Part shown: piece by piece, positions 17,650 through 50,573 of the stretch
Numbering within the stretch: the first letter of the stretch is position 1
How the letters are laid out: each line of letters starts with the position of its first letter
Assembly (NCBI RefSeq): GCF_024919275.1
Contig: NZ_JANWGH010000001.1
Coordinates: 806,001 to 870,000 of the forward strand
Direction: 5' to 3'
DNA length: 64,000 nt
Source: Algoriphagus limi
GTDB lineage: Bacteria; Bacteroidota; Bacteroidia; Cytophagales; Cyclobacteriaceae
Translations under genes and position numbers: made by a program
The notes under the pieces: model-generated
What the model saw: the letters and a program-made list of their open reading frames with translations, nothing else
Told to the model about the DNA's origin: nothing
Database searches by the model: none

Positions 17650-17798
17650 ATAGCCCCAAATTATATTTCACAAATTTTCTATTTTAAAAATATTCAGCGG
17701 TTTTGGTTGTAATATTTTCAATTGATCGGTTGGAAAGAAGAATTTTTTGAAAATTATTTTGGATAATCTTTTCGATCGTTACAACTTTACAGCCTCAA
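17650..17798 (+). other. Promoter-bearing spacer before the arginine leader
   Basis: AT-rich, non-coding. It holds the candidate promoter described separately and no obvious terminator for the aminotransferase gene. I found no convincing palindromic ArgR box (a TGAAT-A/T4-ATTCA pattern) here. Confidence 0.5.
17730..17761 (+). promoter_or_regulatory. Candidate promoter of the arginine operon
   Basis: TTG at 17730-17732, a 22-bp spacer, then TATTTTG at 17755-17761, one base short of the TAnnTTTG consensus. Transcription would start near 17768, about 30 bases before the leader ATG. The spacing is slightly long, so this is only a candidate. Confidence 0.35.
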
Positions 17799-17918
17799 AT
17801 GAAAACCCTCTTTAACATAGCGCAAACTGAAAGTCTCCACAGAGTGTCTGTTGTGGTTTCTGAGCCTATTGTTAATTTTTCTCCAATTAGGAGGCGAAGG
17901 TATTTTTTCAGGGTTTGA
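17799..17918 (+). CDS. Arginine-rich leader peptide of the arginine operon
   Basis: 39-codon open frame from ATG 17799 to TGA 17916-17918, upstream of the arg operon and ending 104 bases before its first gene. Six of 39 residues are Arg. Four are consecutive (codons AGG AGG CGA AGG at 17889-17900, residues 31-34), a fifth (residue 38) is the second-last codon before the stop, and the sixth is residue 15. The remainder is ordinary (starts MKTLFNIAQTE). A run of regulatory-amino-acid codons near the end of a short ORF, followed by alternative hairpins, is the hallmark of ribosome-mediated attenuation (as in trp, his and leu leaders). Not a member of any family I know; coding status is inferred from this design. 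Conservation in relatives would decide it. Confidence 0.68.
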   Translation: MKTLFNIAQTESLHRVSVVVSEPIVNFSPIRRRRYFFRV

Positions 17919-17991
17919 CCCTACAGCATGCATTATTTCCCTACGTGGGAAATCCAATATTCCGCGTTCCCTTTTCTTTAATTCATTTCCC
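17910..17991 (+). promoter_or_regulatory. Candidate attenuator of the arginine operon: mutually exclusive stems
   Basis: Immediately after the Arg codons: stem A AGGGT/ACCCT (17910-17914 with 17918-17922) covering the leader stop. Stem B ATTTCCC/GGGAAAT (17935-17941 with 17947-17953) is a perfect 7-bp pair. Stem C GGGAA/TTCCC (17947-17951 with 17967-17971) is followed by TTTTCTTT, like a weak intrinsic terminator. B and C share the GGGAA strand and cannot coexist. A second ATTTCCC at 17985-17991 offers a further partner for GGGAAAT. A ribosome stalled on the Arg codons would leave stem B free to form (read-through); one reaching the stop would approach ATTTCCC and favour stem C (termination). 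The mechanism is inferred. Confidence 0.6.
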
Positions 17992-18022
17992 GCTGTCAAG
18001 CATTTAATTTCTCCAAAAAATT

Positions 18023-18706
18023 ATGGAAGAAATCACCTTTAAAATTCTGGTGGCTGACGCCAGCCACAAATCCTTTTCTCAGGAAATCACTGATGAAATG
18101 GCAAACTCTGCAAAAGCTCGAGGTACAGGTATCGCTAAGCGAAGCATTGAGTACGTTGAGACCAAGATGGAGGAAGGAAAAGCAGTTATCGCTCTTACCG
18201 GAGATGGCCGATGGGCAGGATTTTGCTACATTGAAGCTTGGGGTCATGGTAAGTATGTTGCCAACTCCGGTTTGATCGTTTCACCTGAGTTTCGAAAGTA
18301 TGGTTTGGCTCGAAAAATCAAACAGGAGATATTTAAACTCAGTCGAAGTAAATATCCGGATTCCAAGATTTTCGGTTTGACCACAGGTCCGGCTGTAATG
18401 AAAATCAACTCCGAGTTGGGTTATATCCCAGTTTCTTATGCTGACTTGACGGATGACAATGAATTCTGGAAAGGCTGTCAGAGCTGTGTAAATTATGAAA
18501 TTTTGATGTCTAAAAACCGTCAAAACTGCCTTTGCACTGCTATGCTATATGATCCCAATGCTCCTAAAAATAAGTTGGCGGAAATGGCATTGCGGAAAGA
18601 TTTTAATAAACGAATCAAATTATTTGACCGCTGGGTAAGACTTAAGAAGTATGTTTTCCTGAAGCTATCCAATTCTAAGAAATCGGTCATGAGTATATTT
18701 ATCTAA
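18023..18706 (+). CDS. GNAT-family acyltransferase, probable N-acyl(succinyl)glutamate synthase
   Basis: First structural gene of the arginine operon; 227 residues. The acetyltransferase (GNAT) core includes the beta4/P-loop-like segment GLIVSPEFRKYGLARKI at about 83-99 for acyl-CoA binding. Residues 152-171 hold a C-x2-C ... C-x-C cluster (C152, C155, C169, C171) that could bind a metal. The order acyltransferase-argG-argC-argD-argF' is, to my memory, also found in Bacteroides, where the corresponding gene was shown genetically to be needed for arginine synthesis and proposed to make N-succinylglutamate. It is not a classical ArgA or ArgJ. The acyl group is inferred from the transcarbamylase in the same operon. 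Confidence 0.75.
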   Translation: MEEITFKILVADASHKSFSQEITDEMANSAKARGTGIAKRSIEYVETKMEEGKAVIALTGDGRWAGFCYIEAWGHGKYVANSGLIVSPEFRKYGLARKIKQEIFKLSRSKYPDSKIFGLTTGPAVMKINSELGYIPVSYADLTDDNEFWKGCQSCVNYEILMSKNRQNCLCTAMLYDPNAPKNKLAEMALRKDFNKRIKLFDRWVRLKKYVFLKLSNSKKSVMSIFI

Positions 18707-18723
18707 TCAGAAAATCCTGAAAA

Positions 18724-19914
18724 ATGAAAAAAGTTGTTTTAGCCTATAGTGGTGGATTGGATACTACCTTTTGTGCCCTGCACCTTTCCAAAGATTTAGG
18801 CTATGAAGTTCATGCTGTAATCGTAAATACAGGTGGCTTCTCAAAAGAGGAATTAAAAACGATTGAAGCCAGAGCCAATTCTTTGGGAATCGCCTCTTTT
18901 ACTATTTTGGACGTAGTTCAAACCTATTACCAAGAAGTGATCAAATACTTGATTTTTGGTAATGTGCTAAAAAATGGGACCTATCCCCTATCTGTATCTG
19001 CTGAACGAATTCTCCAAGCTAAATCGCTTGCAGATTATGCTAAATCCATTGCTGCAAAAGCAGTTGCGCATGGTTCAACTGGTGCCGGAAATGATCAGGT
19101 TCGATTTGATATGATTTTCCAGACTATCGTTCCAGATATTGAAATCATTACTCCGATTCGAGATTTGAAACTTTCCAGACAGAAAGAGATTGAATACTTG
19201 AAAAAACATGGAGTAAGCATGAACTTCGAAAAAGCAGCTTATTCCATCAATAAAGGTATATGGGGAACGTCAGTTGGAGGAAAAGAAACTTTGACTTCTT
19301 CAGATTATCTTCCGGAGGAAGCTTGGCCAACTCAAATCACTGAAAAAGAGCCTAAGGAGGTCTCTTTGACTTTTGTTCAAGGTGAATTGAAAGGTGTGAA
19401 TGGAAAAAGCTTTGATAATCCTGTTGATGCTATTCAAACACTTCAGGAGTTAGCAGCGCCTTATGGAATTGGTCGAGACATCCACGTTGGTGATACGATT
19501 ATTGGTATCAAAGGAAGAGTTGGATTTGAAGCAGCTGCTCCACTAATTATCATTAAAGCACACCAATTATTGGAAAAGCATACGCTTACCAAATGGCAGC
19601 TTTTCTGGAAGAATCAAATGGCTGAGTTTTATGGCAACCACTTGCATGAGGGTCATTATTTGGATCCTGTTATGCGCAATTTGGAAGCATTCTTATCCTC
19701 TACACAGGAGTTTGTGAGTGGAGATGTATTCGTTCGTTTAGAAGAAAAACGATTTACCTTATTAGGAATATCCTCTTCCCATGACTTGATGTCTTCTAAG
19801 TTTGGAAGCTATGGGGAAATGAACAAAGGATATACAGCAGAGGATGTCAAAGGCTTCACTCGAATCTTGGGTAATCAAACTGCTATTTTCCACCAAGTAA
19901 ATCATCATGACTAA
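18724..19914 (+). CDS. argG: Argininosuccinate synthase
   Basis: Joins citrulline and aspartate with ATP to argininosuccinate, the penultimate step of arginine synthesis. 396 residues. The ATP pyrophosphatase P-loop SGGLDT is at 9-14 and GSTGAGNDQVRFD at about 117-129 (family motif GCTGKGNDQVRF-like). Start ATG 18724 is 17 bp after the acyltransferase stop, and its stop overlaps argC by 8 bp, showing operon structure. Cytoplasmic homotetramer by family knowledge. Nothing is missing. Confidence 0.95.
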   Translation: MKKVVLAYSGGLDTTFCALHLSKDLGYEVHAVIVNTGGFSKEELKTIEARANSLGIASFTILDVVQTYYQEVIKYLIFGNVLKNGTYPLSVSAERILQAKSLADYAKSIAAKAVAHGSTGAGNDQVRFDMIFQTIVPDIEIITPIRDLKLSRQKEIEYLKKHGVSMNFEKAAYSINKGIWGTSVGGKETLTSSDYLPEEAWPTQITEKEPKEVSLTFVQGELKGVNGKSFDNPVDAIQTLQELAAPYGIGRDIHVGDTIIGIKGRVGFEAAAPLIIIKAHQLLEKHTLTKWQLFWKNQMAEFYGNHLHEGHYLDPVMRNLEAFLSSTQEFVSGDVFVRLEEKRFTLLGISSSHDLMSSKFGSYGEMNKGYTAEDVKGFTRILGNQTAIFHQVNHHD

Positions 19915-20875
19915 AATCAAAACAGCTATAATCGGTGCTGCCGGATATACAGGTGGTGAGTTGATACGTTTATTGGTTCATCACCCTAACTGTGAATTGG
20001 TTTACATCCATTCGAATAGTCAAAATGGAAAACCTGTTACTACTGTTCATCCGGATTTGATTGGTGATTGTGATCTAATTTTCACGGACAGAGTTGAAAC
20101 TGAAGGATTGGATGCGGTTTTCTTAGGTTTACCGCATGGCCAAACCAAAGCTTTTTTGGAGGAACATCCCTTTCCAGAATCGACTGTAATTATTGATTTA
20201 TCTACAGACTTTAGAGATGAGTCAAATAGCTTTGTCTATGGTTTACCGGAAGTAAATAAATCGAAGATTAAGTCTTCCAAGAAAATTGCCAATCCAGGTT
20301 GTTTTGCTACTGGAATTCAATTGGCTCTTCTTCCGTCAATTGCGCAAGGCTGGGTGAAGGATATTGTACATATTTCTGGAATTACAGGGAGTACAGGTGC
20401 TGGAAAAAAATTGGCAGACACCTCTCACTTCAGCTACCGAAATAATAATATTTCTGTTTACAAGCTATTTACGCATCAGCATCTCAAAGAGATCAAACAG
20501 ACATTTGGACAGGTAAATGTCGGTTTTGATTCAGATCTTCTTTTCGTCCCCTACCGAGGTAATTTTACACGAGGAATCTGGATAACGGCTTATTTTCCTT
20601 TTGAAGGAAGTTTGGAGGAAGCAGAAAAAGCATACAAGGAATTTTATCAGGATTCGCCTTTCACCCATGTAACCTCCGAGAATTTGGACCTAAAACAAGC
20701 GGTTAATACCAACAAATGCTTGATTCAAATTCAAAAAGAAGCAGGTCAATTGGTTGTTTACTCAGCAATTGATAATCTTTTAAAGGGTGCTTCGGGTCAA
20801 GCAGTTCAAAACTTCAATTTAGCTTTTGGTTTAGATGAGAAAACCGGGTTGAATTTGAAAAGCATCGCTTTTTAA
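19907..20875 (+). CDS. argC: N-acyl-gamma-glutamyl-phosphate reductase
   Basis: NADPH-dependent reductase giving N-acyl-glutamate semialdehyde. 322 residues. The N-terminal dinucleotide-binding motif GAAGYTGGELIRLL is at 10-23; the catalytic cysteine is C132 in NPGCFATG; the substrate region SGITGSTGAGKK follows. Overlaps argG by 8 bp. In this organism the acyl group may be succinyl rather than acetyl (see argF'), but ArgC sequence alone does not show this. Cytoplasmic. Confidence 0.93.
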   Translation: MTKIKTAIIGAAGYTGGELIRLLVHHPNCELVYIHSNSQNGKPVTTVHPDLIGDCDLIFTDRVETEGLDAVFLGLPHGQTKAFLEEHPFPESTVIIDLSTDFRDESNSFVYGLPEVNKSKIKSSKKIANPGCFATGIQLALLPSIAQGWVKDIVHISGITGSTGAGKKLADTSHFSYRNNNISVYKLFTHQHLKEIKQTFGQVNVGFDSDLLFVPYRGNFTRGIWITAYFPFEGSLEEAEKAYKEFYQDSPFTHVTSENLDLKQAVNTNKCLIQIQKEAGQLVVYSAIDNLLKGASGQAVQNFNLAFGLDEKTGLNLKSIAF

Positions 20876-20936
20876 AGGAAATATTAAAAAAATCCATGCT
20901 GAGGTAAAAACCAAGCCTCACAAATCTTATTTGAAA

Positions 20937-22067
20937 ATGAAACTATTTGATGTTTATCCCTTGATTCCTGTCACCATTGAAAAAGCTCAAGGCGCAAGAC
21001 TATGGGATGATCAAGGTCAAGAATATTTGGATCTCTACGGGGGGCATGCTGTGATCTCAATCGGGCACACACATCCGCATTTTGTAAAGCGTATTAAAGA
21101 TCAATTGGATGCTATTGCTTTTTATTCGAATTCAGTTCGAATCCCAATTCAAAAAGCTTATGCAAGCAAATTAGGGGAACTTTCGGGTCTTCCTGACTAT
21201 CAATTGTTCCTTTGTAATTCCGGAGCCGAGGCCAATGAGAATGCAATCAAATTAGCTTCCTTCGCAACCGGGAAATCTGGAATGATTGCTTTTAGTGGCT
21301 CATTTCATGGAAGAACTTCAGGGGCCGTTGCATTGACTGATAATCCCAAAATTGTAGCACCCTGTAATGCTCGGGAAGATTTTCATATCCTGCCTTTCGG
21401 AGATTTAGAGGCTGTCGAAAAGGCATTCGAAAACAATTCAATTGGAGGGGTCATCATAGAAGGTATTCAGGGAGTTGGAGGAATTCAAGTTCCGGATGCT
21501 GAATTTCTTTTAGGACTATCCAAACTTTGCAAAACATATGGAGCAAAATTGATTTTGGACGAGGTTCAATCTGGTTTTGGCCGAACAGGAAAATTCTTCG
21601 CTTTCCAGTGGGCTGAGGGTTTACAACCGGATTTAATATCCATGGCAAAAGGAATGGGAAATGGATTCCCAATTGGCGGGCTCTTGATTTCGCCTGATTT
21701 TGAAGCAAGCTATGGGCTACTTGGGACTACTTTTGGAGGAAACCATCTAGCCTGCGCTGCGGGATTAGCTGTTTTGGAAGTTTTAGAATCTGAAGAGCTT
21801 CAGAAAAATGCTCAAAAGTTAGGAGATCGATTGATAGAGGAGTTAAAATCCATCCCACATATCACTGAGGTCCGAGGAAAGGGCTTAATGATAGGAATAG
21901 ATCTAGACAGAGAAGCGGGATCAATCCGTTCTGAACTAGTTTCCAAATACAAAATTTTCACTGGATCAGCCTCAAAAAAAGAAACGATTCGACTACTTCC
22001 ACCCTTGTCAGTTGAATGGAATCAATTAAATTCGTTTATAAGCGCTTTGAAAGCATTATTGGCCTAA
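20937..22067 (+). CDS. argD: N-acylornithine aminotransferase
   Basis: Class III PLP aminotransferase of 376 residues that makes N-acyl-ornithine from the semialdehyde with glutamate as donor. Residue numbers from the ATG at 20937: NSGAEANENAIK at 94-105 (PLP phosphate site), DEVQSGFGRTG at 208-218 (PLP-binding Asp), and the Schiff-base Lys K238 in SMAKGMGNG. The in-frame TTG at 20931 would add two residues; ATG is preferred. A 61-base gap precedes it with a small inverted repeat (TGAGGT ... GCCTCA), and argF' follows after 15 bp. Confidence 0.93.
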   Translation: MKLFDVYPLIPVTIEKAQGARLWDDQGQEYLDLYGGHAVISIGHTHPHFVKRIKDQLDAIAFYSNSVRIPIQKAYASKLGELSGLPDYQLFLCNSGAEANENAIKLASFATGKSGMIAFSGSFHGRTSGAVALTDNPKIVAPCNAREDFHILPFGDLEAVEKAFENNSIGGVIIEGIQGVGGIQVPDAEFLLGLSKLCKTYGAKLILDEVQSGFGRTGKFFAFQWAEGLQPDLISMAKGMGNGFPIGGLLISPDFEASYGLLGTTFGGNHLACAAGLAVLEVLESEELQKNAQKLGDRLIEELKSIPHITEVRGKGLMIGIDLDREAGSIRSELVSKYKIFTGSASKKETIRLLPPLSVEWNQLNSFISALKALLA

Positions 22068-22082
22068 ACGGCTAATCATACG

Positions 22083-23027
22083 ATGAAACAATTCACACAA
22101 TTTGAATCTAGGGAATTAGGACAGGAATTAATTGATCTTGGGCTTGAGTATAAATTCAATCCACGATTGGATATCCAAAAAGGCCAAGGAAAAAGAATTG
22201 GTTGTATTTTTCTAAATCCATCACTAAGAACCCGAGTAAGTACCCAAATAGCGGCTCAAAATTTAGGGATGGAAGCCATTGTCCTCAATATGGATAAGGA
22301 AGGATGGGCCTTGGAAATGCAAGACGGTGCAATCATGAACAAAGGTACTGTAGAGCATATCAAAGATGCCGCTGGCGTCTTGGGATCTTTTTTTGATGTG
22401 TTAGCAGTACGGGCTTTTCCAACTTTGACCCAAAAGCAAGAGGATTTAAGTGATTTTGTAATCAATCAATTCATCAAGTATGCTGGAATTCCTGTAGTTA
22501 GTCTAGAGTCCGCTATTCGGCACCCACTGCAAAGTTTAGCGGATATGATTACCATGCAGGAATATCAAAAGGAAAATAGAAAGCCAAAAGTTGTTTTGAC
22601 TTGGGCTCCACATATCAAAGCTATTCCTCATGCGGTTGCCAATAGCTTCGCAGAATGGTCACTTGGTATGGGTTATGATCTAACCATTACTCATCCGGAG
22701 GGATATGATTTGGATGAAAGTTTTACAAAAGGTGCTACATTAGAATACGATCAAAGTAAAGCACTGGAAGGAGCTGATTTTGTGTATGTTAAAAACTGGT
22801 CATCCTTTCAGGATTATGGTAAAATCCATAGCACAGATCCGAGTTGGATGCTCACCCAAAAGCACCTTGTAAATGCTCCTAACGCGAAGGTCATGCATTG
22901 TCTTCCTGTTAGAAGAAACTTAGAATTATCAGATGAGATTTTGGATAGTGACCGATCCTTAGTCCAGGTCCAAGCAAAAAATCGAATCTTCGCTGCTCAA
23001 GCTGTTTTGAGTAAAATTATTGAATAA
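22083..23027 (+). CDS. argF': N-succinylornithine carbamoyltransferase (SOTCase-type)
   Basis: Carbamoylates N-acylornithine to N-acylcitrulline; 314 residues. The carbamoyl-phosphate motif is SLRTRVST at 47-54, and the family motifs RHPLQSLAD and HCLPVRRN are both present; these fit the Bacteroides SOTCase (RHPLQSxAD) better than the Xanthomonas AOTCase (HPCQELAH). At position 90, in the loop GAIMNKGTVEH, there is Val. The equivalent residue is Pro90 in B. fragilis SOTCase and Glu92 in X. campestris AOTCase, and substitution of that Glu with Ser, Pro or Val was reported to switch AOTCase to succinylornithine (from memory). So a succinyl substrate is likely. Confidence 0.88.
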   Translation: MKQFTQFESRELGQELIDLGLEYKFNPRLDIQKGQGKRIGCIFLNPSLRTRVSTQIAAQNLGMEAIVLNMDKEGWALEMQDGAIMNKGTVEHIKDAAGVLGSFFDVLAVRAFPTLTQKQEDLSDFVINQFIKYAGIPVVSLESAIRHPLQSLADMITMQEYQKENRKPKVVLTWAPHIKAIPHAVANSFAEWSLGMGYDLTITHPEGYDLDESFTKGATLEYDQSKALEGADFVYVKNWSSFQDYGKIHSTDPSWMLTQKHLVNAPNAKVMHCLPVRRNLELSDEILDSDRSLVQVQAKNRIFAAQAVLSKIIE

Positions 23028-23045
23028 TCACCTAGGTCCCAGCCT

Positions 23046-23846
23046 ATGAAAATTTCCGTAATTAAAATCGGAGGAAATGTCATTGACAATCCAGAAAAAC
23101 TGGAAGAATTTCTCCAACAATTCGCCAAGTTTCCGGGCTATAAAATCTTGGTTCATGGTGGAGGGGTTATGGCTTCCAGATTTGGTGAGTCTCTTGGTGT
23201 AATGCCAGAAATGGTGGATGGAAGGAGAATTACTGACAAGGACACCTTGGATATCGTGACTATGGTATATGCTGGATTGATCAACAAAAACCTGGTAGCT
23301 TCACTCCAAGCCTTAGGCGTCAATGCGATTGGGATGACCGGTGCTGATGGAAATGCAATTCGTTCAGAAAAACGTCCTTTCAAGGAAATTGATTATGGTT
23401 TTGTAGGCGATGTGAAGGAAGTAAACACATCCATGATCCGTCATTTATTGGATGCTAATTTGGTTCCCGTTTTCAATGCAATTACGCATGATGGAAATGG
23501 GCAACTCTTGAATACTAATGCCGATAGCATTGCTTCAGCCGTAGCGACAAGCTTATCAAGAGGCAATGAGGTTAACCTTTATTTTTGCTTCAATAAGGCT
23601 GGCGTTTTAGTCGATGAGAAAAATGAAAACTCAATTATCCCATTGATCAATGAGGATATCTACGCCGAACTCAGAAAGGAAAATGTGATCCATTCCGGTA
23701 TGATTCCAAAGCTAGATAATGCATTTGCAGCTTTGCAAAAAGGCGTAAATCATGTTTGGATAGGTAAAGCAGAAAACCTTTTGCTTTCTACAAAAGGAAA
23801 ATTATCAGGAACCGTCATTGAACGGCATCGCTACGATTTATACTGA
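23046..23846 (+). CDS. argB: N-acylglutamate kinase
   Basis: Amino-acid-kinase-fold enzyme that phosphorylates N-acylglutamate with ATP; 266 residues. Motifs: KIGGNVIDN at 7-15 with the catalytic Lys, the glycine loop HGGGVMASRFGESLG near 37-51, and NTNADSIASAVATS near 160-173. It shares the stop/start base with the downstream M20 gene (overlap of one base, TGATGG), a sign of translational coupling. The usual N-terminal helix that mediates arginine feedback in hexameric ArgB is short or absent here, so feedback control through this enzyme may be weak; that is inference. Confidence 0.93.
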   Translation: MKISVIKIGGNVIDNPEKLEEFLQQFAKFPGYKILVHGGGVMASRFGESLGVMPEMVDGRRITDKDTLDIVTMVYAGLINKNLVASLQALGVNAIGMTGADGNAIRSEKRPFKEIDYGFVGDVKEVNTSMIRHLLDANLVPVFNAITHDGNGQLLNTNADSIASAVATSLSRGNEVNLYFCFNKAGVLVDEKNENSIIPLINEDIYAELRKENVIHSGMIPKLDNAFAALQKGVNHVWIGKAENLLLSTKGKLSGTVIERHRYDLY

Positions 23847-24922
23847 TGGATAACTTTGAACTCGTCACTGAAGAATGTATTCAGCTGTTGCAAGAGCTGA
23901 TTTCTATCCCTTCATTTTCCAAGAAAGAGGAGGAAACAGCTACAGCAATCAGCAAATTTTTAGTCAAGAAGGAAGTTGATTTTGAGCGTTTTGGAAATAA
24001 TATTGTTGCTTACGCTAAACCTTTTGACACCAACAAACCAACAGTTTGGCTGAATTCCCATCATGATACTGTAAAACCCAATAAGGCATACACTCGAGAT
24101 CCATTTTCACCGGACATTGAAGAAGGAAAACTGTTTGGTCTAGGCTCTAACGATGCAGGTGGTCCACTTGTCAGCCTATTAGGAGCGTTTTTGATTTTGA
24201 GAGAAAAAGAACTCCCTTTCAACCTTGTTTACATTGCTTCAGCCGAGGAAGAAATTTCAGGTAAAAAGGGTATTGCAATGGTTCTAGAGCATTTGCCTGA
24301 ACCAGAATTGGTGATTGTAGGTGAGCCTACTCAAATGAAAATGGCTTTAGCTGAAAAGGGCTTAATGGTACTTGATGCTGAAGTATTTGGGAAGCCTGGA
24401 CATGCAGCGAGAAATGAAGGAATTAATGCTATTTATTTGGCATTGGATGACCTTGAAAAGGTCAAAAACTTTGAATTCAAAAAGATTTCACCCTATCTCG
24501 GAAAATCAAAAGTAACTGCAACTATCATTCAGGCTGGCAGCCAACATAATGTTGTTCCTGATCTATGTTCATATACCTTGGATGTCCGAGTGACAGATGC
24601 TTATACATTAGAAGAAGCGCTTGAAGAACTGGAAAATTCCCTATCCGCTAAACTTATTCCTCGTTCTCTCCGCCTTCGAAGTTCAAAAACTCCAGATGAT
24701 CATCCAATTATTCGGGCCTCTGCGAAATGTGGAATGGAAACTTTTGGAAGCCCTACTTTATCAGATCAGGCGCTTATCCCCTATCCATCCGTAAAAATCG
24801 GCCCCGGTGATTCAGCCCGCTCCCACAGCGCTGACGAATTTATTTACGTCCGTGAAATTGAAAAAGCTGTGGTTGATTATGTTGTTTTGCTAGAAAAATA
24901 CGCTCAAATCAAATCAGAATAG
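23846..24922 (+). CDS. argE: M20 metallopeptidase-type N-acylcitrulline/ornithine deacylase (ArgE-like)
   Basis: Removes the acyl group from N-acylcitrulline in the route through SOTCase (deacylation comes after carbamoylation). 358 residues. Dizinc motifs: NSHHDTVKP at about 69-77 (His and Asp), GSNDAGGP with the bridging Asp at about 97-104, SAEEEISGKKG with the catalytic Glu pair near 132-142, and HSADEF at the C-terminus with the last His. M20 lid domain in between. Position between argB and argH in the operon, with 4 bases before argH. Specificity for acetyl or succinyl is not readable from the sequence. Confidence 0.9.
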   Translation: MDNFELVTEECIQLLQELISIPSFSKKEEETATAISKFLVKKEVDFERFGNNIVAYAKPFDTNKPTVWLNSHHDTVKPNKAYTRDPFSPDIEEGKLFGLGSNDAGGPLVSLLGAFLILREKELPFNLVYIASAEEEISGKKGIAMVLEHLPEPELVIVGEPTQMKMALAEKGLMVLDAEVFGKPGHAARNEGINAIYLALDDLEKVKNFEFKKISPYLGKSKVTATIIQAGSQHNVVPDLCSYTLDVRVTDAYTLEEALEELENSLSAKLIPRSLRLRSSKTPDDHPIIRASAKCGMETFGSPTLSDQALIPYPSVKIGPGDSARSHSADEFIYVREIEKAVVDYVVLLEKYAQIKSE

Positions 24923-24926
24923 AATT

Positions 24927-26264
24927 ATGAAAATTTGGCAAAAAGCCAGTGGAAATAAAAAAGAGGTAGAACAGTTTACCATCGGAAGAGATCCGGAGTT
25001 TGATATAATTCTAGCTCCTTATGATGTCTTGGGTTCCATGGCACATGCTGCGATGCTAGAAAAAATCGGTCTTTTAACTTCCGAGGAAAATCAAAGTCTT
25101 CAAAAAGGACTAAAAGAAATCTACCAAGAGATCGAGAATGGTGAATTCCAAATTGAGGAAGGAGTTGAGGATGTGCACTCTCAGGTGGAGTTTTTGCTGA
25201 CTAATAGACTTGGGCCAGTTGGGAAAAAGCTACATTCTGGAAGAAGCCGAAATGATCAGGTTCTAGTTGATTTGAAATTGTACTATCGTGCTGCAATTCA
25301 AGAATTAGTAGCTGAAATCACCGATTTAGGGCTTCTTTTAAGCCAACTTTCAGAAAAACACCAATCTGATTTGATGCCAGGCTACACGCATACACAATTG
25401 GCTATGCCTTCTAGTTTCGGGCTTTGGTTTGCTTCTTTTTTGGAAGGGTTGGCAGAAGATCTTCAACTTTTGAAAACAGCTTTTGACCTTTCCAATAAGA
25501 ATCCTTTGGGATCAGCAGCAGGATATGGATCAAGTTTTCCACTTGACAGAACGATGACCACCCAATTACTTGGATTTGCTGACTTACATCATAATGTGAT
25601 TAATGCTCAAAATAGCCGTGGAAAGACAGAACGTACCTTAGCCTTTGCCATGGCTGGAATAGCAGCAACTTTGAATAGAATGGCAGATGATATTTGCCTG
25701 TTTATGAATCAGCATTTTTCTTTTGTGAGCTTTCCTGACGAATTGACAACAGGATCCAGCATTATGCCTCACAAAAAGAATCCTGATGTATTTGAATTGA
25801 TCCGAGCCAAAACCAATCAGATTCAAGCTGTTCCTCAGACCATTTCTCTTTTACTGACCAATTCAACAACTGGATATCACCGAGATTTACAATTGCTTAA
25901 AGAAGAGGTTTTTCCGGCATTGGAAAGTCTAAAGGATTGCGTGCGAATGACCACTTTTATGCTTCAATCCATTCAAATCAGAAAAAACATTCTAAACGAT
26001 CCTTTTTATCAACATGTCTTCTCCGTTGAAGTTGTCAATGATTTGGTTTTGAAAGGAATGCCTTTCCGTGATGCCTACAAAAAAGTAGGTCTAGATATTG
26101 AGTCAGGGGATTTCAATCCAGATCAAACACAAGTTTCCCATAGTCATGAAGGAAGTATTGGGAATTTGAACTTGGAAGAAATCAATCAAAAACTTCAAAA
26201 AGCCATTCGATCTTTTGATTTTGAAAGTGTAGAAAACGCTGTGAATAAATTGATTGGCAAATGA
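24927..26264 (+). CDS. argH: Argininosuccinate lyase
   Basis: Cleaves argininosuccinate to arginine and fumarate, the last step. 445 residues, fumarase/aspartase superfamily. The signature GSSIMPHKKNPD lies at about 277-288 with the catalytic Ser, and LHSGRSRNDQV (LHTGRSRNDQ in others) at about 101-111. Last gene of the arginine operon; only 80 bp separate it from the SulP gene, without a clear terminator, so some read-through is possible. Confidence 0.95.
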   Translation: MKIWQKASGNKKEVEQFTIGRDPEFDIILAPYDVLGSMAHAAMLEKIGLLTSEENQSLQKGLKEIYQEIENGEFQIEEGVEDVHSQVEFLLTNRLGPVGKKLHSGRSRNDQVLVDLKLYYRAAIQELVAEITDLGLLLSQLSEKHQSDLMPGYTHTQLAMPSSFGLWFASFLEGLAEDLQLLKTAFDLSNKNPLGSAAGYGSSFPLDRTMTTQLLGFADLHHNVINAQNSRGKTERTLAFAMAGIAATLNRMADDICLFMNQHFSFVSFPDELTTGSSIMPHKKNPDVFELIRAKTNQIQAVPQTISLLLTNSTTGYHRDLQLLKEEVFPALESLKDCVRMTTFMLQSIQIRKNILNDPFYQHVFSVEVVNDLVLKGMPFRDAYKKVGLDIESGDFNPDQTQVSHSHEGSIGNLNLEEINQKLQKAIRSFDFESVENAVNKLIGK

Positions 26265-28608: not shown

Positions 28609-28615
28609 GGTGAGG

Positions 28616-28726
28616 ATTTATAAAGAAGAGGCGAGAGACAGGCTCTACGACCCTCTGGCAACCTTCCAAAGTGGAAAGGTGCCAAATCCTGCCGGGTGAG
28701 ATGGTCTCACTTGGAACTATAAATTC
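28616..28726 (+). ncRNA. SAM riboswitch (S-box, SAM-I type) upstream of metY-metX
   Basis: The aptamer core fits the S-box pattern: GAGGCGAGAGACAGGCTC then TACGACCCTC, the conserved TGGCAACC, a P3 hairpin with TTCC/GGAA, and AGGTGCCAAATCCTGCC (family aGGTGcTAATTCC). A P4 hairpin GTGAGA-TGG-TCTCAC follows. P1 is closed by ATTTATA (28616-28622) with TATAAAT (28718-28724). S-adenosylmethionine binding should turn down the downstream methionine genes. A second ATTTATA copy at 28741-28747 can compete for the P1 3' strand (see findings). Confidence 0.9.
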
Positions 28727-50395: not shown

Positions 50396-50467
50396 TAGTC
50401 CGTACGGGAATCGAACCCGTGTTTCATCCGTGAAAGGGATGCGTCCTAACCCCTAGACGAACGGACC
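50396..50467 (-). tRNA. tRNA-Glu (UUC)
   Basis: 72-base cloverleaf on the minus strand, 5' GGTCCGTTCGTCTAGGGG..., anticodon TTC in the loop CTTTCAC flanked by CATCC/GGATG, T-arm CGGGTTCGATTCCCG. The CCA end is not encoded. It is identical to the copy at 50502-50573, of which it is the downstream member; a 34-base spacer lies between. Confidence 0.97.
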
Positions 50468-50501: not shown

Positions 50502-50573
50502 TAGTCCGTACGGGAATCGAACCCGTGTTTCATCCGTGAAAGGGATGCGTCCTAACCCCTAGACGAACGGACC
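50502..50573 (-). tRNA. tRNA-Glu (UUC), promoter-proximal copy
   Basis: Same 72 bases as the downstream copy, same anticodon TTC and no encoded CCA. The promoter TTTG-20-TATATTTG lies upstream (minus strand, 50612-50643), so both tRNAs are made as one precursor. Confidence 0.97.

Follow-up and report, generated by a model that had tools for sequence, protein, structure and literature searches.

In E. coli trpL the first hairpin has the stop codon of the leader in its loop, and arginine operons are usually described as being controlled by ArgR. The closest described leaders with arginine codons, given here after parts of the papers cited, come from two bacteria. The speF leader orf34 of Salmonella has 34 codons, among them consecutive arginine codons, and acts with Rho, no rho-independent terminator having been found (PMC6386406), and in rbfL of S. 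aureus rare AGA/AGG leader codons sense arginine limitation (PMC13009471). For 5' regions of Flavobacterium psychrophilum, leader-peptide attenuation has been suggested before amino-acid operons, and an element at hisG was without an Rfam match (PMC9723704); for Bacteroides, sORFs like leader peptides are mentioned (PMC7366714). According to the part consulted of one paper, the Firmicutes case that it describes was the first leader peptide known from beyond Proteobacteria and Actinobacteria (PMC2965389). Our literature search, made by title and the start of the abstract and covering few subscription papers, returned no Arg leader of an arginine-synthesis operon.

The window of this study is a stretch of 64,000 nucleotides from Algoriphagus limi (contig NZ_JANWGH010000001.1, positions 806,001 to 870,000), and its features of interest are collected in Table 1. 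The arginine operon runs in the order GNAT acyltransferase, argG, argC, argD, N-acetylornithine-type carbamoyltransferase, argB, ArgE/DapE-type deacylase (argE/dapE) and argH; the matches for argG, argD, the carbamoyltransferase and the deacylase lie below the curated NCBIfam or Pfam cut-off. An earlier reading of the window, made from its letters only (the sequence-only reading), had proposed that a 39-codon frame upstream of these genes is an Arg leader and that the stems behind it make it a classical attenuator answering to charged tRNA-Arg. Its letters were confirmed one by one: the frame with its TGA, the codons AGG AGG CGA AGG with a further AGG at 17910, the 104 nt between the end of the frame and the start of the acyltransferase, ATTTCCC/GGGAAAT at 17935-17953, TTCCC plus TTTTCTTT at 17967-17979 and a second ATTTCCC at 17985-17991. 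Our own interpretation is that the Arg-codon frame and a hairpin over its stop codon (HP1) probably form a ribosome-mediated attenuator without an intrinsic terminator, which decides on transcription into the operon. Elsewhere the window holds a SAM riboswitch (28615-28725, + strand; RF00162, 77.8 bits) and two adjacent tRNA-Glu(TTC) genes of equal score (50396-50467 and 50502-50573, - strand).

Table 1. Features at and around the leader of the arginine operon, in window positions.
Feature	Position	Strand	Basis
Predicted Bacteroidota-type promoter: TTG 17759-17761, 20 nt, CAACTTTA 17782-17789	17759-17789	+	shared forms in 94 aligned upstream regions
Leader peptide ORF, 39 codons, MKTLFNIAQTESLHRVSVVVSEPIVNFSPIRRRRYFFRV and stop	17799-17918	+	counterparts at 69/69 genus and 25/25 other-genus loci; frame test 91/93
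Possible long stem in the ORF: strand A AACATAGC 17814-17821, strand B CCTATTGTT 17865-17873	17814-17873	+	suggestive only
Run of Arg codons, AGG AGG CGA AGG, where the ribosome likely stalls	17889-17900	+	AGG bias; tRNA-Arg(CCU) gene
HP1, AGGG-TTTGA-CCCT, spanning the last Arg codon and the stop TGA (17916-17918)	17910-17922	+	RNAalifold; conservation
HP2, ATTTCCC-TACGT-GGGAAAT, loop CC-YAYGY-GG	17935-17953	+	covariation
G-poor, C-richer stretch, candidate Rho loading region	17954-18022	+	base composition
Arginine operon, 8 genes	18023-26264	+	ORFs; NCBIfam and Pfam matches

An Arg-rich ATG frame stands ahead of the arginine operon at 69/69 Algoriphagus loci and at 25/25 loci of other Cyclobacteriaceae. 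Frame and Arg run are thus present at 94/94 family loci, and the proposal of an Arg leader upstream of this operon was borne out, in an order in whose sampled genomes no ArgR was found. The acyltransferase was located in 69 of the 72 genus genomes, the three misses being genomes that are 74-78% complete. The 25 other loci represent 14 named genera, including Belliella, Indibacter, Cecembia, Mongoliibacter, Aquiflexum, Lunatimonas and Echinicola; they were drawn from a set of 80 loci whose own genus members (L070-L114 and a few more), mostly from the same genomes, were not scored separately. These counts are to be read with the facts that the leader pattern for the 69 genus loci was composed after inspecting alignments and that the anchors for the 25 others demand AGGG. 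A covariance model (R1) matches all 25 at the leader position, with E from 2e-10 to 0.01. The leader has 34-43 codons across the family (n=94), counted from the ATG that stands 95-115 nt ahead of HP1 (at some loci another ATG in the same frame lies upstream of that one); its end lies 85-116 nt before the acyltransferase gene in the genus and 85-145 nt over all family loci. Genus tails are, for example, FSPxRRxRFFFRV, LRTCRFFYRV, LRQSFRV and LRRLFRRA, and those of the other genera are mostly like LRRFRNSFRA. At 91/93 loci (the box was found in 93/94) the Arg run is read in the frame of the first ATG past the promoter box, despite a distance from box to HP1 of 98-129 nt, and this conservation of the frame suggests that the leader is translated. 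Comparing 95 close pairs over codons 9-22, we counted single differences of which 281 were non-synonymous and 193 synonymous; with so little constraint there, it is the tail that is kept, not the whole peptide. The sequence-only reading had proposed to ask whether the Arg run and the paired strands covary while the rest drifts; the run is kept, HP2 covaries, and the GGGAA/TTCCC stem is not conserved.

Upstream of the leader, the 94 aligned regions share the forms CTTGCAATT and, about 20 nt further on, AACATTTGC just before the ATG. The corresponding pattern TTG-N16-22-[TA]A..TTT[GA], which we take to be the Bacteroidota promoter form, occurs in 53/93 loci against a shuffled mean of 2.9, one of the 94 loci having been dropped for too short an upstream stretch, and its end lies a median of 13 nt from the ATG. 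The window's own copy is in the same place, with the ATG 9 nt past the box, and deviates from the pattern letters. Given a promoter-like site upstream of the leader ATG, a transcription start downstream of 17918 is unlikely.

The choice of codons within the tail is strongly skewed. Of the 242 Arg codons found over the final 13 codon positions of the 69 genus leaders, 203 are AGG, as are 189 of the 237 in the 11 codons before HP1 at the 94 loci (HP1's own Arg codon excluded), compared with 9.5% of Arg codons in the 47 window ORFs of at least 200 codons and 2/87 in the arginine operon itself. Those 47 ORFs contain no RRRR, no 4-codon stretch with three AGG and, in 17,373 stretches of eight codons, none with five Arg. 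A tRNA-Arg(CCU) gene is present in the genome, as shown by ARAGORN on the best 30 of 37 tRNA loci. The AGG bias would be more in keeping with a leader that senses tRNA charging than with one that senses through its peptide. As bare strings, neither AGGAGGNNNAGG (1 match in 64 kb, 0.41 expected) nor that of HP1, AGGGTTTGACCCT with at most one mismatch (1 match, 0.14 expected), goes beyond chance; the case rests on conservation, not on bare strings. That the leader is an Arg-codon sensor seems to us very probable.

The sequence-only reading had missed the hairpin around the stop codon. RNAalifold, applied to 68 distinct genus regions, predicted HP1 and HP2 and nothing more; the MAFFT alignment (A5), in which the HP1 loop was misaligned between groups, was replaced by A6. 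In the genus HP1 has the form AGGG-5 nt-CCCT, with rare deviations, its 5' arm containing the last Arg codon, and the first codon of the AGG run lies 21 nt upstream of it in 68/94 loci. The stop codon is in the HP1 loop at 83/94 loci (69/69 in the genus, 14/25 in other genera) and falls 9-12 nt later, just past HP1, at 11 of the 25 other-genus loci. As HP1 hardly varies in Cyclobacteriaceae (its three G-C pairs are present in 77/77 distinct family rows), covariation is uninformative for it there. Elsewhere in the order other letters occupy the place of HP1, namely GGCCCTAGGCC, AGGCGCTAAGCGCCT, GTCCCTAACGGGGAC, GTCCCTAATAGGGAC and CGCCCATAGGGGCG, in each case surrounding the stop codon of an Arg-rich frame. 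A strict detector, whose requirements were an ATG ORF with three Arg or more among its final 14 codons and a hairpin covering the stop, found this combination at 14/60 order loci, one of them (L221) caught via its HP2 and not an HP1, against a mean of 0.1 (maximum 2) in dinucleotide shuffles; in the family it found 75/94 loci against 0.2 in shuffles, and it was failed by 46/60 order loci and 19/94 family loci. The 60 order loci were hand-picked for genus spread among those listed of 235 acyltransferase-positive genomes, and none was removed later. At L180-L186 and L191 (other Cyclobacteriaceae, family f1; genera g2, g3, g9), which failed the detector, several Arg frames end in RIRI or FVRI, and these may be a further leader variant. 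A second covariance model (R2) gave 41 matches at E <= 0.05 in 292 order genomes, 32 of them in the 54 family genomes (all E < 2e-5) and nine in the 238 others (E 0.001-0.05). Four of these nine were compared with the place of the acyltransferase: that of G211 lies at its locus, whereas the acyltransferase lies elsewhere in G103 and G121, as does its best copy in G094. The remaining five are those of G128, G153, G158, G244 and G339. A second weak R2 match in one genome (G037:C2:211870-211941, E 0.009) lies away from the arginine operon.

About 13 nt beyond HP1 follows HP2, whose ATTTCCC/GGGAAAT stem, proposed from the letters of the window, proved to be real: all seven pairs change on both sides. 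Cells changed on both sides numbered 56 in 65 distinct genus rows (slid versions at most 13) and 78 in 77 family rows (slid versions at most 37), values that 0/500 shuffles reached in either case. Against a tree-based null, a simple one of our own, 80 cells compare with a mean of 21.2, and the observed value was reached in 1/1000. The loop is kept as well. The pattern YYYRYGNRR with a stem occurs in 68/94 family loci (1.55 expected) and in 17/57 order loci (1.07 expected), three family loci (L236-L238) having been left out of the order-wide count; 16 of the 17 have a YAYGY loop, and the order loci with this type of loop come from families f1, f5, f11, f12 and f15. Perhaps HP2 is a binding site for some factor, a putative role that we suggest tentatively.

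Two further pairings were considered. The possible long stem inside the ORF, between strands A and B of Table 1, has an energy of -9.78 kcal/mol for a locus's own pairs and -8.06 for swapped ones. None of 500 column shuffles reached its count, yet two slid versions have more both-changed cells and 78/1000 runs of the tree-based null reach the observed value (both the column-shuffle and the tree tests used the 58 of 94 loci with 111-nt leaders), and we regard this stem as suggestive only. A pairing of strand B with CAATAGCA after HP2, suggested by inspection of other genera, was rejected as not specific, with -6.70 kcal/mol for own, -6.41 for swapped and -6.17 for shuffled strands at the 94 loci; in the 25 other-genus loci it was weakly better (-8.13 vs -7.64 kcal/mol). 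In the stretch after HP2, C exceeds G in 93/94 loci, with mean contents of 0.257 for C and 0.104 for G, compared with 0.207 and 0.184 in the leader ORF, a bias that may be taken as a weak sign of Rho, on which leader-peptide attenuators such as speF, tnaC and mgtL depend.

The description of such operons as ArgR-repressed, which the sequence-only reading had repeated, found no counterpart in the genus and order genomes sampled. The C-terminal domain of ArgR (PF02863) was detected in 0/72 genus genomes, the window's own included, and in 0/292 genomes sampled from the order, and the same search was positive in 8/14 reference genomes used as controls, including a Bacteroides. In the class the domain was seen in 12/247 genomes, its absence being common in the class as sampled. 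Another, unrelated repressor could stand in place of ArgR.

Are there comparable leaders before other amino-acid operons of the genus? A His leader precedes hisG at 24/25 Algoriphagus loci (L240-L264), its tail being HH.HH and a few residues, for example ..HHFHHSS before the stop. A hairpin such as ATTCCTCTTGAGAGGAAT encloses its stop codon in 24/24 leaders, against 6.4 in flank shuffles, when at least four pairs with two G-C are required, and in 8/24, against 1.4 expected, with three G-C. By eye, a further conserved element follows the his leader (for example CCGGTGACGCTGATGACAGGGATTCGGCCTTTCACC); four loci tested gave no Rfam match to the his element. Trp leaders were found in 12/12 genus genomes searched (L295-L306) and carry a WWW run, GGCTTAC...GTAAGCC or nearly so, and a T run; a stop-codon hairpin is present in 0/12 of them (2.2 and 0.45 expected at two and three G-C). 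Since the arginine and histidine leaders have the stop hairpin and the tryptophan leaders do not, in this genus it accompanies the leaders without a terminator. A search for a Leu/Ile/Val leader at leuA in 24 loci gave one chance-like match; the first gene of that operon was not located, hence the search is uninformative.

The sequence-only reading had envisaged a classical attenuator, in which ATTTCCC/GGGAAAT competes with an intrinsic terminator formed by GGGAA/TTCCC and the letters following it. These letters are in the window, and a relative in the genus (L004) has the same stem with a U-rich tail. Over the family, however, a complement downstream of the 3' strand of HP2 is found in 16/94 loci against 18.3 in shuffles, so that neither the terminator stem nor a pairing of the second ATTTCCC with the shared strand is commoner than chance, and a U-rich stretch follows such a complement in 3/94 loci (L001, which is the window, L004 and L121). 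A strict scan for intrinsic terminators (at least 6 pairs, at least 4 G-C, 6 T in 8 bases) found them in 12/12 genus trp leaders, 0/94 arginine loci and 0/24 his leaders. With three G-C pairs the counts were 12/12 for trp, 10/94 for arginine (HP1 or HP2 themselves) and 3/24 for his, and an earlier, greedy version of the scan, in which the stem absorbed the T run, gave 4/12, 8/94 and 1/24. Under loose thresholds a terminator-like site appears in 55/94 loci against 3.9 in mononucleotide shuffles, among the sites listed mostly HP1 with its AT-rich follow-up. Could HP1 itself be the terminator? It would stop transcription at the ribosome stall, which is the wrong sense, and the strict scan passes no site; from the wrong sense it follows that HP1 is better read as a possible pause hairpin. 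Mutually exclusive stems were not borne out either: HP1 and HP2 can coexist, and the helix scan gave no competing conserved helix with comparable covariation. What stood of classical attenuation by tRNA-Arg is the translated Arg-codon leader with a promoter-like site upstream; the intrinsic terminator and the exclusive stems fell away, and the complete classical scheme is highly improbable.

It may be asked whether the position of the ribosome sets the translation of the acyltransferase, by translational attenuation or reinitiation, instead of transcription. The short distance from leader to gene and the lack of a terminator would agree with this, and S. aureus rbfL offers a precedent with Arg codons (PMC13009471). 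Against it, neither HP2 nor the start of the acyltransferase switched in folding with a ribosome-sized mask, the predicted accessibility of the start region being 0.505, 0.513 and 0.510 in three ribosome states. With the mask on the first Arg codon HP1 stays closed (0.88); with the mask on the stop codon it goes to zero, solely since its bases were masked, and the formation of HP2 barely changes by ribosome position (0.66, 0.60). As HP2 and the start region barely change, HP1 is the only tested element that depends on where the ribosome is. By eye, moreover, the stretch after HP2 varies between genera. We consider translational control unlikely and lean towards control at transcription. TnaC and the fungal arginine attenuator peptide are nascent chains that sense in the ribosome tunnel, and a nascent RRxRFFFRV, or PRP at the stop, might sense arginine in this way. 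The C-terminal residues are indeed conserved within the family and a PRP preceding the stop is seen again in other families, but the non-Arg residues vary freely across the order and a peptide sensor leaves the AGG codon bias unexplained, and we think an arrest peptide quite unlikely. The kept loop and covarying stem of HP2 in five families of the order could also mean that HP1 and HP2 are primarily a site bound by a protein or small molecule, as in a riboswitch, the ORF being secondary. This is very unlikely in view of the stop hairpins, which accompany Arg-rich ORFs far beyond chance, and of the Rfam search: at the leader no Rfam 15 family, riboswitch or T-box, reached its gathering score, and the one match at E <= 5 lies on the other strand with 14.6 bits against a cut-off of 48. 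Finally, the conserved frame might encode a functional small protein that is Arg-rich by accident, but the little constraint on codons 9-22 makes this barely credible.

How, then, would an Arg-codon leader with a stop-codon hairpin act on transcription? The evidence for its sensor half is good; how its output side would work, and in which direction it responds, we infer. At low arginine, charged tRNA-Arg would be scarce and the ribosome would stall on the AGG run. HP1 would then be closed and RNA polymerase would proceed, so that the operon is on, and a hairpin-stabilised pause together with the coupled stalled ribosome would likely keep Rho off. At high arginine, the ribosome would reach the stop, open HP1 and release, and the G-poor tract past HP2, now bare, would probably allow Rho-dependent termination. 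Rho is a possible but by no means assured executor. At the 11 loci where the stop comes 9-12 nt later, a ribosome that has reached the stop would be placed differently, which speaks against this mechanism. More speculatively, the ArgR-less Cytophagales may run arginine synthesis by attenuators without a terminator, in which the stop-codon hairpin is the switch and is read out by the YAYGY-loop HP2 binding some factor, with the same class serving histidine and the classical type tryptophan; we would hold this loosely.

With an order in which 292 sampled genomes yielded no ArgR and an Arg leader before the complete pathway in Cyclobacteriaceae, arginine sensing becomes directly testable. The layout also gives a starting point for asking how, in Bacteroidota, attenuation could end with no intrinsic terminator, and the arginine and histidine leaders beside a classical trp attenuator in one genus offer a natural comparison of two attenuator designs. 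The Arg leader works like a classical attenuator, yet fails that class on the terminator and the exclusive stems. It shares with trp-type attenuators a short leader and a run of control codons before the operon of that amino acid, and with E. coli trpL also the stop codon within the first hairpin's loop; it differs in having neither an intrinsic terminator nor a conserved antiterminator, in place of which stands a second hairpin whose loop is conserved. The trp leaders of Algoriphagus itself, with a terminator and no stop-codon hairpin in all 12, are unlike its Arg leader on both counts. The following comparisons reach as far as the parts of the papers cited. Like our leader, speF orf34 has consecutive Arg codons and no rho-independent terminator that was found, but it governs ornithine decarboxylase and not arginine synthesis, and high arginine leads to mRNA degradation by RNase G (PMC6386406); by inspection alone, no sequence resemblance between the two was noticed. 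In rbfL rare Arg codons likewise stand in the leader, but this has 8 codons, overlaps the rbf ribosome binding site, acts on translation and represses in low arginine (PMC13009471). The Cys leaders of actinobacterial cys operons resemble the Arg leader in that the codon run stands close to the stop and that no terminator hairpin was found, and their authors suggest a role for Rho; they differ in amino acid and phylum, and the source, as consulted, reports no conserved terminator-capable hairpins and no stop-codon hairpin (PMC1262725). The structured 5' regions of F. psychrophilum belong to the same phylum, but the text consulted does not name an arginine operon and gives no architecture (PMC9723704). 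Leaders with Arg codons had been described in Salmonella (speF) and S. aureus (rbfL), and what is new here, as far as these sources go, is an Arg-codon leader before an arginine-synthesis operon.
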